Below, piece after piece: positions 36,668-43,076 of a stretch of DNA of 64,000 nt; position 1 is the first letter of the stretch, and each line of letters opens with the position of its first letter. The position numbers were made by a program, and so were the translations under genes. The DNA is from Chryseomicrobium sp. FSL W7-1435 (lineage in GTDB: Bacteria > Bacillota > Bacilli > Bacillales_A > Planococcaceae), in the NCBI RefSeq assembly GCF_038595005.1, contig NZ_CP151997.1, positions 2,604,001 through 2,668,000 of the forward strand, written 5' to 3'. The notes beneath the pieces are model-generated. The model ran no database searches. It was given only the letters and a program-made list of their open reading frames with translations, and was not told where the DNA came from.

Positions 36668-37375
36668 CTATTCGTCACTCATACGTTTTTTAAACAATAC
36701 CGCTGAGACAATCACTGCCACTATTGCCCAGACTGCGAGCACCACTAGAGAGATTAGAATATCTGAAGTCGCCCCTACTGCACTGTTTTGCTCAAGCAAA
36801 ATTAACTGAGCACTTGGCAACCATTGGAATATCTCAAGAATCGGATAGCGATCCGCAAACAACAATACTAATGGTCCAAATGAAAAGACGAGCATCACTG
36901 GAAGAATCCCAACAGAAGCTTCCATAACCGTTTTCGTATAAAGGCCTACAATCAAGCCCATCGCCAAGTAAAAAATTGTGGAAAGGACCAGTGCGATCCC
37001 CATTGCAAATAGGTTAGACGGCGTAAAATCAAGCATCCACATGCACATGCCTAAAATAACTACTGTGATGACAAACACAAGAGCACTTTTTCCAATCAGT
37101 ACATCCGCTACGGATGCTGGCGACAACAATAAACTGCGCAATGTATTGTGTTCTTTCTCTTCTGCAATGAGACAGCTCTGAATAAACGCTGTAATCATCG
37201 CAAACGTCAGATTGATTGGTATGAACATGCTCTGCAAGTCCATGTCCCCTGTCATACTATATAGAAATGCTAGCGCTAATGGCATAAGCACCATAGTCGA
37301 AATCGCATAATTTCGGTAAAACTCTTTGTAATCTTTCACAAAAATCGCTTGGATTCTTTTCGCAGATACATTCAT
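36668..37375 (-). CDS. ABC-2 type transporter permease
   Basis: 235 residues with six hydrophobic helices in the ABC-2 pattern. It contains the characteristic amphipathic connector after helix 2 (CLIAEEKEHNTLRSLLLSPASVADVLIGK), the E-x-x-x-x-T-L-R-S/P-L-x-x-S-P motif of drug/antibiotic exporter permeases. Overlaps the ATPase gene by 4 bp (ATGA). Expected to dimerise and export an unknown substrate. Confidence 0.9.
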   Translation of the reverse strand: MNVSAKRIQAIFVKDYKEFYRNYAISTMVLMPLALAFLYSMTGDMDLQSMFIPINLTFAMITAFIQSCLIAEEKEHNTLRSLLLSPASVADVLIGKSALVFVITVVILGMCMWMLDFTPSNLFAMGIALVLSTIFYLAMGLIVGLYTKTVMEASVGILPVMLVFSFGPLVLLFADRYPILEIFQWLPSAQLILLEQNSAVGATSDILISLVVLAVWAIVAVIVSAVLFKKRMSDE

Positions 37376-38223
37376 GATAATTCTCCCCCTGTCACGCGCA
37401 TAAATAGATCTCCAAGTGTCGGTTCATTGGAATGAATACGACGAATACGTTGGCCCGTCGCCCAGTTTTTTAATGCATCCATCGTAGCCACTTCGTTCAC
37501 TGGCAGTTCGTGTATTTCTCCACAAGTCAATTCGATTTCGATAATGTCAGTTCTGTACGCATTCTTCAATTCTTTTGGTGATCCACTTTCACGAATTTCT
37601 CCTTCATGTAAGAAGGCTACTCGGTGACATAAGGCCTCTGCTTCATGCATATCGTGCGTCGTCAGTAAAATCGTTGTCCCTTGAGCGTTCAATTTTCGTA
37701 ATCCCTCGTGAATATGATGTGTATTTACTGGGTCGAGCGCTGATGTGGGTTCATCTAAAAAGAGAAGCTCTGGTTTATGAAGGATGGCACGAGCCAATGT
37801 GACGCGCTGCATCATCCCACGCGACAGTTGGGCTACTTTTTTCTTCTTGTTAGGTAAGAGGTTTACGAACTGAAGTGCTTCGTCCATTGCGGACTCTGGA
37901 AGCTCGTATAGATCACAGTACATTTTGAGGTTCTCTTCTATAGTAAGTCGTTTATACAACCCACTGTTATCCGTCAGAACGCCAAACCGTTTGCGATTTC
38001 GACTTTGCTTGATGTGTTCACCAGATTCTCCAAACACCTCAACAGTTCCAGAGGAAGGTTCAAGTTGTCCCGTTAAGAGTTTAATGATGGTCGACTTTCC
38101 AGCACCACTTGGCCCAAGTAATCCTAAAATCTCACCTGTCTGAATTTCTAGATCCACATTTCGTATTGCTTCAAATCGACTAAAGCTTTTCTTCACTTTT
38201 TCCATTTTAATGGTATCACTCAT
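37372..38223 (-). CDS. ABC transporter ATP-binding protein
   Basis: 283 residues: Walker A GPSGAGKST (about 35-43), Q-loop replaced around FGVLTDNSGLY, signature LSRGMMQRV (canonical LSGGQ altered to LSRGM), Walker B LLFLDEPTSALDP, and switch His in LLTTHDMHEAEAL. Energises the adjacent permease. GGGAGG precedes the ATG. The regulator gene with a degenerate ABC domain lies 144 nt upstream on the same strand. Confidence 0.93.
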   Translation of the reverse strand: MSDTIKMEKVKKSFSRFEAIRNVDLEIQTGEILGLLGPSGAGKSTIIKLLTGQLEPSSGTVEVFGESGEHIKQSRNRKRFGVLTDNSGLYKRLTIEENLKMYCDLYELPESAMDEALQFVNLLPNKKKKVAQLSRGMMQRVTLARAILHKPELLFLDEPTSALDPVNTHHIHEGLRKLNAQGTTILLTTHDMHEAEALCHRVAFLHEGEIRESGSPKELKNAYRTDIIEIELTCGEIHELPVNEVATMDALKNWATGQRIRRIHSNEPTLGDLFMRVTGGELS

Positions 38224-38295
38224 TCAAATGGCCTCCCTTATTGTTTTCTACACTGAGTGTATGAAAAGACAGAGAGGCCTGCAGTAGTTTTCACG

Positions 38296-38342
38296 TGAAT
38301 AGCATCCGAAATTCGCTGAATGGTGGAAATTTCGACATGAAT
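38296..38342 (-). promoter_or_regulatory. Three direct repeats with 21-bp period, putative LytTR sites
   Basis: On the minus strand ATTCA recurs exactly every 21 bp: ATTCATGTC, ATTCAGCGA and ATTCACGTG (plus-strand TGAAT at 38296, 38317, 38338). Each is followed by an A/T-rich stretch that is also partly repeated (GAAATTTC, GAATTTC, GAAAAC). LytTR regulators bind direct repeats on one helix face with about two-turn spacing, so these are candidate sites of the neighbouring LytTR protein upstream of the exporter operon. Confidence 0.55.
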
Positions 38343-38367
38343 GGAAAGGATTATTTCCCAGGAAATA

Positions 38368-39288
38368 TTATGATATGCCAAGAAGTTCTTTTAACAGACT
38401 AAGTTTGGCACGAGATATTGGCACCAATGTCGTTTTTTCGACATCCAATTTAATACTGTAACTATTTTTCGTCCAACTCACCAACTCACGCACTTTTTGT
38501 AAGTTTACAATGTAGGATCGATGACATCTATAGAATCCATAGTGCTGGAGCCTTGCTTCCAGTTCAGTCAATGTAAAAGAGCTTGTGTATGCTATGCCCG
38601 CTACATTGATATACACTGTCCCATCAATACTTTCTATATAATCGACTTCAGGAGGATTGAATAAAAGTGTTTTCTCTCGATGTTTCACTTGAATCTTATT
38701 GACCTTCAATTGGGTAGGTTCTTCATTGAGAGGGGCAGTGTCATCTTTGAATTCCATTTTATGGATTCCTCGTTCATCTAAGCGATAAATAGAGTCGGAT
38801 ACCGGCAACAAATCTTCTAAGTTGGTGCTTAAAAGTAAAATGGATTTTCCTTGGCGTTGCATACCTCTCAGTATCTGTTCAACGGCATAACGTCCCTCTA
38901 ATTCGATTCGGTGAAAAGGCTCTTCGATGACAACCCAGTCCCCGGATGCACAAAATGCTCTGATAAAAGATAGGGTGTTTCGTTTCGTCTCAGATAATTT
39001 TTTCACCTTCATACGCGCTTCTGCTGTCAGATCAAATAGTTTTAACAGTTCTGAAATCGCCCAGTCTGTATCCGAGAGCTTTAAGTAATAATTTATCGTT
39101 TCTTGAACTGTTAGGTGGGGGTGATGTCCGTCTTGCACTTGATGAACATAAGCCACCCTCTGGAATTGGTTCATGAGAGAAGCTGCACGTTTCATATCCA
39201 CTAACAGCCCTGTCGTACCATGTGTAAATGTATGTCCAGGAATCCACACTCTTTCTTTCTCCATCACTGTTGTTGACGTTAATGTCAT
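38368..39288 (-). CDS. Degenerate ABC-ATPase domain fused to LytTR DNA-binding domain
   Basis: 306 residues. Residues ~1-185 keep the outline of an ABC ATPase but have lost its catalysis: the Walker A position reads GHTFTHGTTGLL, with no GKS/T, the signature is LSETKRNTLSFIRAF instead of LSGGQ, and Walker B is WVVIEEPFHRIE. Residues ~204-303 are a LytTR domain: VDYIESIDGTVYINV ... FYRCHRSYIVNLQKV. It probably binds the 21-bp repeats in front of the exporter operon and may sense exporter state or a ligand through its ABC-like half. GAGGG lies 6 nt before the ATG. Such fusions exist in Firmicutes but are poorly described. Confidence 0.87.
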   Translation of the reverse strand: MTLTSTTVMEKERVWIPGHTFTHGTTGLLVDMKRAASLMNQFQRVAYVHQVQDGHHPHLTVQETINYYLKLSDTDWAISELLKLFDLTAEARMKVKKLSETKRNTLSFIRAFCASGDWVVIEEPFHRIELEGRYAVEQILRGMQRQGKSILLLSTNLEDLLPVSDSIYRLDERGIHKMEFKDDTAPLNEEPTQLKVNKIQVKHREKTLLFNPPEVDYIESIDGTVYINVAGIAYTSSFTLTELEARLQHYGFYRCHRSYIVNLQKVRELVSWTKNSYSIKLDVEKTTLVPISRAKLSLLKELLGIS

Positions 39289-39345: not shown

Positions 39346-39378
39346 AAAAAAACACGTACATCCGAAGATATACGTGTT
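39346..39378 (-). terminator. Terminator of the riboflavin operon
   Basis: AACACGTA / TACGTGTT stem followed by T residues on the minus strand, just past ribH and before the LytTR gene, separating the two units. Confidence 0.85.
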
Positions 39379-42924: not shown

Positions 42925-42932
42925 TTGTGTTT

Positions 42933-43076
42933 TCCTTCTCCCATCCAGACTTTTACTGTCGGCTTTGGAGTTTCACCAAATCCACCGCTTTCTTTTCACA
43001 GAAACCGGGTCACGGACTAAGAGGCCTTGCCTCATCACCGCCGGTTGGGAATTGCACCCGACCCCGAAGGAAATCC
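42933..43076 (-). promoter_or_regulatory. FMN riboswitch (RFN element)
   Basis: Reading the minus strand: GGATTTCCTTCGGGGTCGGG, TGCAATTCCCAACCGGCGGTGA, AGTCCGTGACCC, the variable arm, then GTGGATTTGGTGAAACTCCAAAGCCGACAGTAAAAGTCTGGATGGGAGAAGG. All conserved blocks of the RFN element are present in order. When FMN binds, the downstream terminators should form and stop transcription of ribD-ribE-ribBA-ribH. Confidence 0.96.

Follow-up and report, generated by a model that had tools for sequence, protein, structure and literature searches.

Two groups of described LytTR regulators come close to the locus analysed here. LytTR regulatory systems (LRS), such as HdrRM and BrsRM of Streptococcus mutans, have a LytTR regulator without a receiver domain and direct repeats of 9 bp; a gap of 12 bp mostly separates these repeats, which are strongly biased towards a position 10 bp before the -35 element, and ABC transporter genes are linked in some cases (PMC6193735). 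In RcoM and CoxC, the LytTR output is joined to a sensory domain of the haem or MHYT type, and there are three repeats at about two-turn spacing; CoxC is a repressor, and its sites overlap the -35 element (PMC11347149). For the LytTR regulator AgrA, the proximal repeats are centred about 60 bp upstream of the start sites (PMC4227749).

The locus considered here combines a LytTR domain with a nucleotide-binding domain (NBD) of the ABC type. An ABC-LytTR domain architecture was reportedly described by Nikolskaya and Galperin in 2002, and the LytTR domain itself reportedly received its name in a 2002 paper. The architecture also exists as an InterPro/PIRSF entry, which we take to be the same domain pairing as in the regulator of this locus; its model was absent among the two Pfam matches and the best 25 of the 73 NCBIfam matches of the regulator. 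Transporter parts that control the transporter's own regulator are familiar from MalK-MalT and BceAB-BceS, in which a separate regulator is touched by the working transporter, whereas here a dead ATPase domain lies within the regulator. No description of the function, operator or partner operon of ABC-LytTR regulators was found in the open-licence PubMed Central papers searched. The separate elements are thus familiar, and their pairing is reportedly listed in protein databases; what appears to be new is a LytTR one-component regulator whose probable input domain, a dead transporter ATPase, is tied to one exporter family.

The window, that is, the whole stretch of DNA analysed (64,000 nucleotides), belongs to a genome consisting of a single contig of 2.71 Mb. 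On the minus strand of the window, the regulator gene, a 144-bp gap, and the genes for the ATPase and the permease of an ABC-2 exporter form a three-gene unit (Table 1); the coordinates given in the initial annotation are correct. The terminator-like hairpin that separates the rib operon from the regulator is weak evidence by itself (one in the region against 1.1 expected in shuffles). The sole Rfam match between 36000 and 43500 is an ordinary FMN riboswitch 5' of the riboflavin operon (42929-43075, 114.7 bits), and a PHROGs search returned four matches, none with a telling function.

Table 1. Features of the regulator-exporter locus, in window coordinates
Feature	Position	Strand	Basis or remark
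Regulator gene, 306 aa	38368..39288	-	Degenerate ABC NBD + LytTR; ORF, Pfam, model, alignments
Dead NBD part, ~residues 1-177	38758..39288	-	No P-loop, LSGGQ or H-loop His; EEP replaces DEP
LytTR DNA-binding domain, ~residues 198-304	38377..38697	-	Pfam 84.4 bits; 3d6w_B Z 17.1
ABC-2 exporter ATPase, DrrA-like	37372..38223	-	ORF, Pfam; catalytic motifs intact
ABC-2 exporter permease	36668..37375	-	4-bp overlap with end of ATPase gene
Operator repeat 1 TCCATTCAT, distal	38337..38345	-	Pattern and ortholog conservation; predicted site
Operator repeat 2 ACCATTCAG	38316..38324	-	21 bp from repeat 1; predicted site
Operator repeat 3 GCTATTCAC, promoter-proximal	38295..38303	-	21 bp from repeat 2; predicted site
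Weak -35-like element CTGCAG	38279..38284	-	10 bp past repeat 3 read as a 9-mer; positioned from orthologs
-10-like element TACACT	38256..38261	-	17 bp after -35-like element; ortholog consensus TAnncT
Noc-type palindrome ATTTCCTGGGAAAT	38353..38366	-	Between regulator stop codon and operator; putative site
Terminator-like hairpin	39351..39378	-	3' of ribH, between rib operon and regulator

Pfam places the LytTR domain of the regulator far above its cut-off of 22.6 bits, while ABC_tran stays under its own (19.8 against 25 bits, profile positions 52-136 of 137); these are the only Pfam matches at E<=1, and a receiver (REC) domain was not found. The AlphaFold2 model of the window regulator (mean pLDDT 87.4, pTM 0.58) has an NBD followed by a LytTR fold. 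The best match of the modelled NBD is LptB (4p31_B; Z 18.5, rmsd 3.1, 183 residues aligned), and among the matches listed by structure comparison (VIA) most are NBDs; the LytTR fold is matched by 3d6w_B with an rmsd of 1.8 over 109 aligned residues. NCBIfam adds weak matches to DrrA and CcmA.

The 153 loci yield 139 distinct regulators; catalytic motifs were counted in these and in 138 partner ATPases. GK[ST] occurs at the aligned P-loop columns in 0/139 regulators, whereas Walker A is present in 138/138 partner ATPases. The same split holds for the LSGG-type signature (scored by regular expression) and for a DEP-type Walker B (0/139 against 138/138 for each), and the H-loop histidine is found in 1/139 regulators against 138/138 ATPases. 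Glutamate replaces the Walker B aspartate in 113 of the 139 regulators, and the catalytic glutamate is retained in 136. Matches to a Walker A expression in seven of the 139 were set aside, as they start at 12 or 142-173, off the P-loop; in one shortened ORF (L117) a GKT lies at most about 8 residues from the place of the P-loop. Judged by these motifs, ATP chemistry is lost in the regulator NBD throughout the sampled family. The initial annotation had described a catalytically dead ABC domain, without Walker A and LSGGQ, fused to LytTR; this holds, with the H-loop histidine missing as well and with both folds modelled.

The dead NBD shares its fold and profile similarity with DrrA/CcmA-type ABC-2 exporter ATPases but differs from them in the missing P-loop, signature and H-loop histidine and in the fusion to LytTR. 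In a profile alignment by hhalign, the dead-domain family matches the partner ATPases across 197 columns (E 7e-39). That the regulator is a former transporter ATPase, as first proposed, stands as far as a dead ABC domain goes; descent from the exporter's own ATPase is not shown by a tree, in which the regulators are not placed beside the operon ATPases. This tree has 46 rows, namely 18 long-form regulators, 22 ATPases and six labelled as outgroup (one of these, L194_og2, is really a partner ATPase), and the 18 regulators cluster together (100/100) on a branch of length 2.63, which is long enough to make the placement of the group uncertain.

The NBD part is conserved only moderately, with a mean majority frequency of 0.45 against 0.73 for LytTR, and the regulators of the window's genus are about 25 residues shorter than the long forms, the difference lying between the P-loop and Q-loop regions. 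Poor conservation of this part and the shortened forms would suit a dead NBD that is a dimerisation scaffold or a leftover, with regulation by protein level or another input and the exporter as a mere target. This reading is rather unlikely, in view of the 197 columns over which the dead-domain profile still aligns with the partner ATPases, of several near-invariant NBD positions, and of the genome distribution that the regulator shares with one permease family. Positions conserved to at least 90% in 35 aligned regulators are Y56, L59 and E63, which belong to a YERLTVxE stretch, and E123 and P124. The YERLTVxE stretch follows the Q-loop region and, as is general for NBDs, would lie next to the permease-facing surface. 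Regulators and ATPases have the same majority residue in 34% of the columns of the whole domain, in 15/30 of the helical subdomain and in 9/20 of the stretch after the Q-loop region; likeness is lowest in the strand leading into the P-loop (3/15). Since the stretch after the Q-loop is not clearly above the helical subdomain or the whole domain, these counts do not demonstrate a kept permease contact.

Conservation of gene order was followed in the 153 loci, made up of a first set of 73 and a second, named set of 80. The second set is the best 80 of at least 359 relatives found, and the nearest named relatives of the regulator come from Chryseomicrobium aureum (79%) and Tetzosporium hominis (75%). 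An exporter ATPase gene follows the regulator within 320 bp on the same strand in 148/153 loci (73/73 of the first set, 75/80 of the second), and the start of the permease gene overlaps the ATPase gene by 1-4 bp as a rule. Across the 151 family genomes examined, 78 have a permease match (E<=1e-12) and 79 a regulator match (E<=1e-15); the two lists are identical except for G137, whose only regulator match is a fragment of 69 residues with three stop codons. Regulator, ATPase and permease are one module. In a class sample, the regulator is matched at E<=1e-25 in 62 of 398 genomes, and more distant relatives of the regulator (31-32% identity) occur on Priestia plasmids. As to a conserved neighbour hinting at the substrate, none is common to more than six of the 97 loci with the whole permease in the available sequence (two nearest ORFs per side).

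In five loci (L103, L145, L153, L157 and L159), no exporter ATPase was found in the 320 bp that follow the regulator. The nearest one detected in L153, L157 and L159, from Salinicoccus and Jeotgalicoccus, is about 0.9 kb after the regulator. By eye, Chengkuizengella marina (L145:4459-6627) has arginase-like and aminotransferase-like genes between regulator and ATPase, and Paenibacillus plantiphilus (L103:4364-5360) keeps regulator, repeat-like sites and permease with a short remnant of the ATPase; the latter is possibly a natural case of regulator and permease without ATPase, or simple decay.

The initial annotation had also reported three direct repeats with an exact 21-bp period before the exporter operon, and these are confirmed. 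Their 7-bp cores (CYATTCA) read CCATTCA at 38344-38338, CCATTCA at 38323-38317 and CTATTCA at 38302-38296 on the minus strand, in steps of exactly 21 bp. Allowing up to three mismatches, the triple pattern occurs once in the window (none in 100 shuffles) and once in the 2.71-Mb genome (none for the reversed control); a generic repeat search with a minimum length of 10 did not list the trio.

Orthologous gaps were compared after leaving out the five loci without an ATPase within 320 bp and 14 near-copies, which gave 134 distinct gaps; 59 representatives have regulators less than 70% identical. In the 58 representative gaps other than that of the window, CCATTCA with at most one mismatch was matched 100 times on the gene strand (20.5 in shuffles) and 17 times on the opposite strand (15.3 in shuffles), and there were 25 pairs with a 21-bp step, against a shuffle mean of 0.04. 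A motif derived from one half of the representatives and scored on the other half gave a phased pair (20-22 bp) in 54/59 loci at p<=0.01 and in 56/59 at p<=0.05; because the loci are related and not independent, these p-values hold for each locus singly and do not count evolutionary events. Orthologous operons with the regulator but without the repeats had been named as a possible counter-observation; when sought, they amounted to 3/59 (L036, L139 and L144, without a significant phased pair by the held-out motif and counted as misses). The mean best-pair score in this held-out comparison was 21.1 at 21 bp, 11.0 at 20 bp and 4.7 at 22 bp. The best chains, in which steps of 20-22 bp were permitted, contain 92 steps, 74 of them of 21 bp and 18 of 20 bp, and the chains comprise at least three sites in 30 of the 59 loci, two in 24 and one in five.

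Because the loci are related and shuffles do not remove relatedness, repeats and synteny might in principle be inherited by shared ancestry without function. We consider this barely credible: with regulators less than 70% identical and inter-repeat DNA diverged, the cores and the 21-bp step nevertheless persist, and on one strand only. The conserved row of repeats before the exporter suggests that the regulator controls the exporter in many Bacillales.

The same scoring, with a motif from all representatives, found no phased pair upstream of the regulator (mean 0.6 against 0.2 for shuffled sequence), whereas the exporter gap scored 23.2 (59/59 scored). The repeats lie 3' of the regulator gene, so self-activation is not indicated, and the regulator is not predicted to activate its own gene. 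As for further targets, a two-copy genome scan with three mismatches was too noisy for defining a regulon (at least 157 matches against 31 for the reversed pattern), and the three-copy pattern was therefore used. A strict two-copy pattern marked 23 places in 21 of 151 genomes, namely 18 of the 78 that have the regulator intact, plus three of the 73 others; by coordinates, 14 of the places adjoin the regulator gene and nine lie elsewhere. This pattern misses the window's own site and is accordingly weak evidence, so that relatives may still have other targets. Two genomes without the regulator have a phased CCATTCA-type pair (G096:C1:594718-594748 and G104:C10:635793-635823), perhaps the target of another LytTR protein.

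With the LRS, the regulator shares a LytTR domain without a receiver domain and 9-bp repeats that are 12 bp apart and end 10 bp before a -35-like element; with RcoM and CoxC, it shares a LytTR output fused to a further domain and three phased repeats at a spacing of about two helical turns. The further domain is of the ABC type and not haem or MHYT, and the dead ABC domain equally sets the regulator apart from the LRS. In the LRS, a small membrane inhibitor gene lies directly downstream and the repeats precede the regulator's own operon, whereas here ATPase and then permease follow (the ATPase in the 148/153 loci counted above) and the repeats come after the regulator gene. The regulator is without two defining LRS features, though it may work alike.

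Anchored on the last repeat, the ortholog consensus has a -35-like xTGxxx at +18 and TAnncT at +41; for the window the resulting spacing is 9-mer repeats with 12 bp between them, 10 bp to the -35-like and 17 bp to the -10-like element, a layout that fits the published LRS spacing of repeats and -35. The promoter core of the window has 2/6 and 4/6 consensus bases, and a promoter pattern scan returned nothing at the proposed site. Repeats that end 10 bp before the -35-like element, together with a poor core, are as expected for an activated promoter, and the regulator is probably a one-component LytTR activator of the neighbouring ABC-2 exporter. We infer activation rather than repression from position only.

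On the same operator, bound LytTR dimers could alternatively repress the exporter and leave the DNA once the dead NBD has taken up the exported compound or another ligand. Release by the substrate is common among repressors of exporter genes. CoxC is an example of a LytTR repressor that has three phased repeats (PMC11347149), and the scan's only minus-strand match (38394-38367) lies upstream of the repeats, although at chance level (four matches in the region against 3.3 expected); were it a real promoter, transcription would start upstream of the repeats, and a bound repressor could act as a roadblock. The sites of CoxC overlap its -35, whereas the ortholog-consensus repeats end 10 bp upstream of the -35-like element, and the poor core resembles that of activated promoters. 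Repression of this kind is distinctly unlikely.

For the activator, the layout and conservation of the operator point to a LytTR domain that would bind two to three 9-bp direct repeats on one DNA face as a row of protomers. The bound LytTR would recruit RNA polymerase to the poor promoter and so switch on the ATPase-permease operon. The dead NBD would then be the input domain, and its fusion to LytTR, its genetic linkage and its retained fold make the exporter itself the most likely input. With a kept ABC fold and a near-invariant Y..L...E beside the permease-facing surface, the dead NBD could attach itself to the permease or form a pair with the working ATPase. In that case the regulator might be idle while held at an idle exporter and be freed once the exporter is engaged, comparable to the regulators that a membrane inhibitor holds in the LRS; candidate signals are absence or load of the exporter, or a ligand.

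Seven bp before repeat 1 there is a putative binding site for the nucleoid occlusion protein Noc, whose consensus binding site is given as TATTTCCC-GGGAAATA (PMC7383237); the site in the window has TG at its centre in place of the CG of the consensus. The genome of the window encodes Noc (363.6 bits, cut-off 315) and contains 11 exact ATTTCCYRGGAAAT sequences and one with a single mismatch, against none of the reversed pattern. When the gap and the final 60 nt of the regulator gene were searched, allowing up to one mismatch outside the central two bases, 66/134 loci and 25/59 representatives had such a site, against 0.06% of shuffles; the loci include Planococcaceae-type genomes, Paenibacillus, two Halobacillus and one Alkalicoccus. 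Twenty-five genomes were searched throughout, and all have Noc above cut-off; they contain 2-22 exact sites each against 0-3 for the reversed control (G124 has three of both). Among 22 regulator-bearing genomes, the site at the locus is exact in 16 and has one mismatch in three.

Gene context is likewise kept around two of the ten remaining exact sites of the window's genome, each time in one of the two distant genomes compared (L187 and L188 against L196 and L202; one kept in G061, the other in G035), so positional conservation is not unique to the operator locus. Some Noc-type sites appear to be held in place over long times, and the site at 38353-38366 possibly links nucleoid occlusion with the exporter promoter. 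A bolder combination makes the dead NBD a decoy subunit on the permease or the real ATPase that parks the activator at the membrane, where it would report assembly or load of the exporter, with the Noc-type site bringing the promoter there; this we hold to be highly improbable.

The conserved Noc-type site raises the question of whether chromosome-membrane tethering sites may be placed for gene control. The regulators belong to a class that is widespread in Bacillales and, going by open-licence PubMed Central papers, apparently unstudied, with a readable operator, one clear predicted target and an input open to experiment. They would make concrete a general question, how a dead motor domain of a transporter may become the sensor of a transporter.
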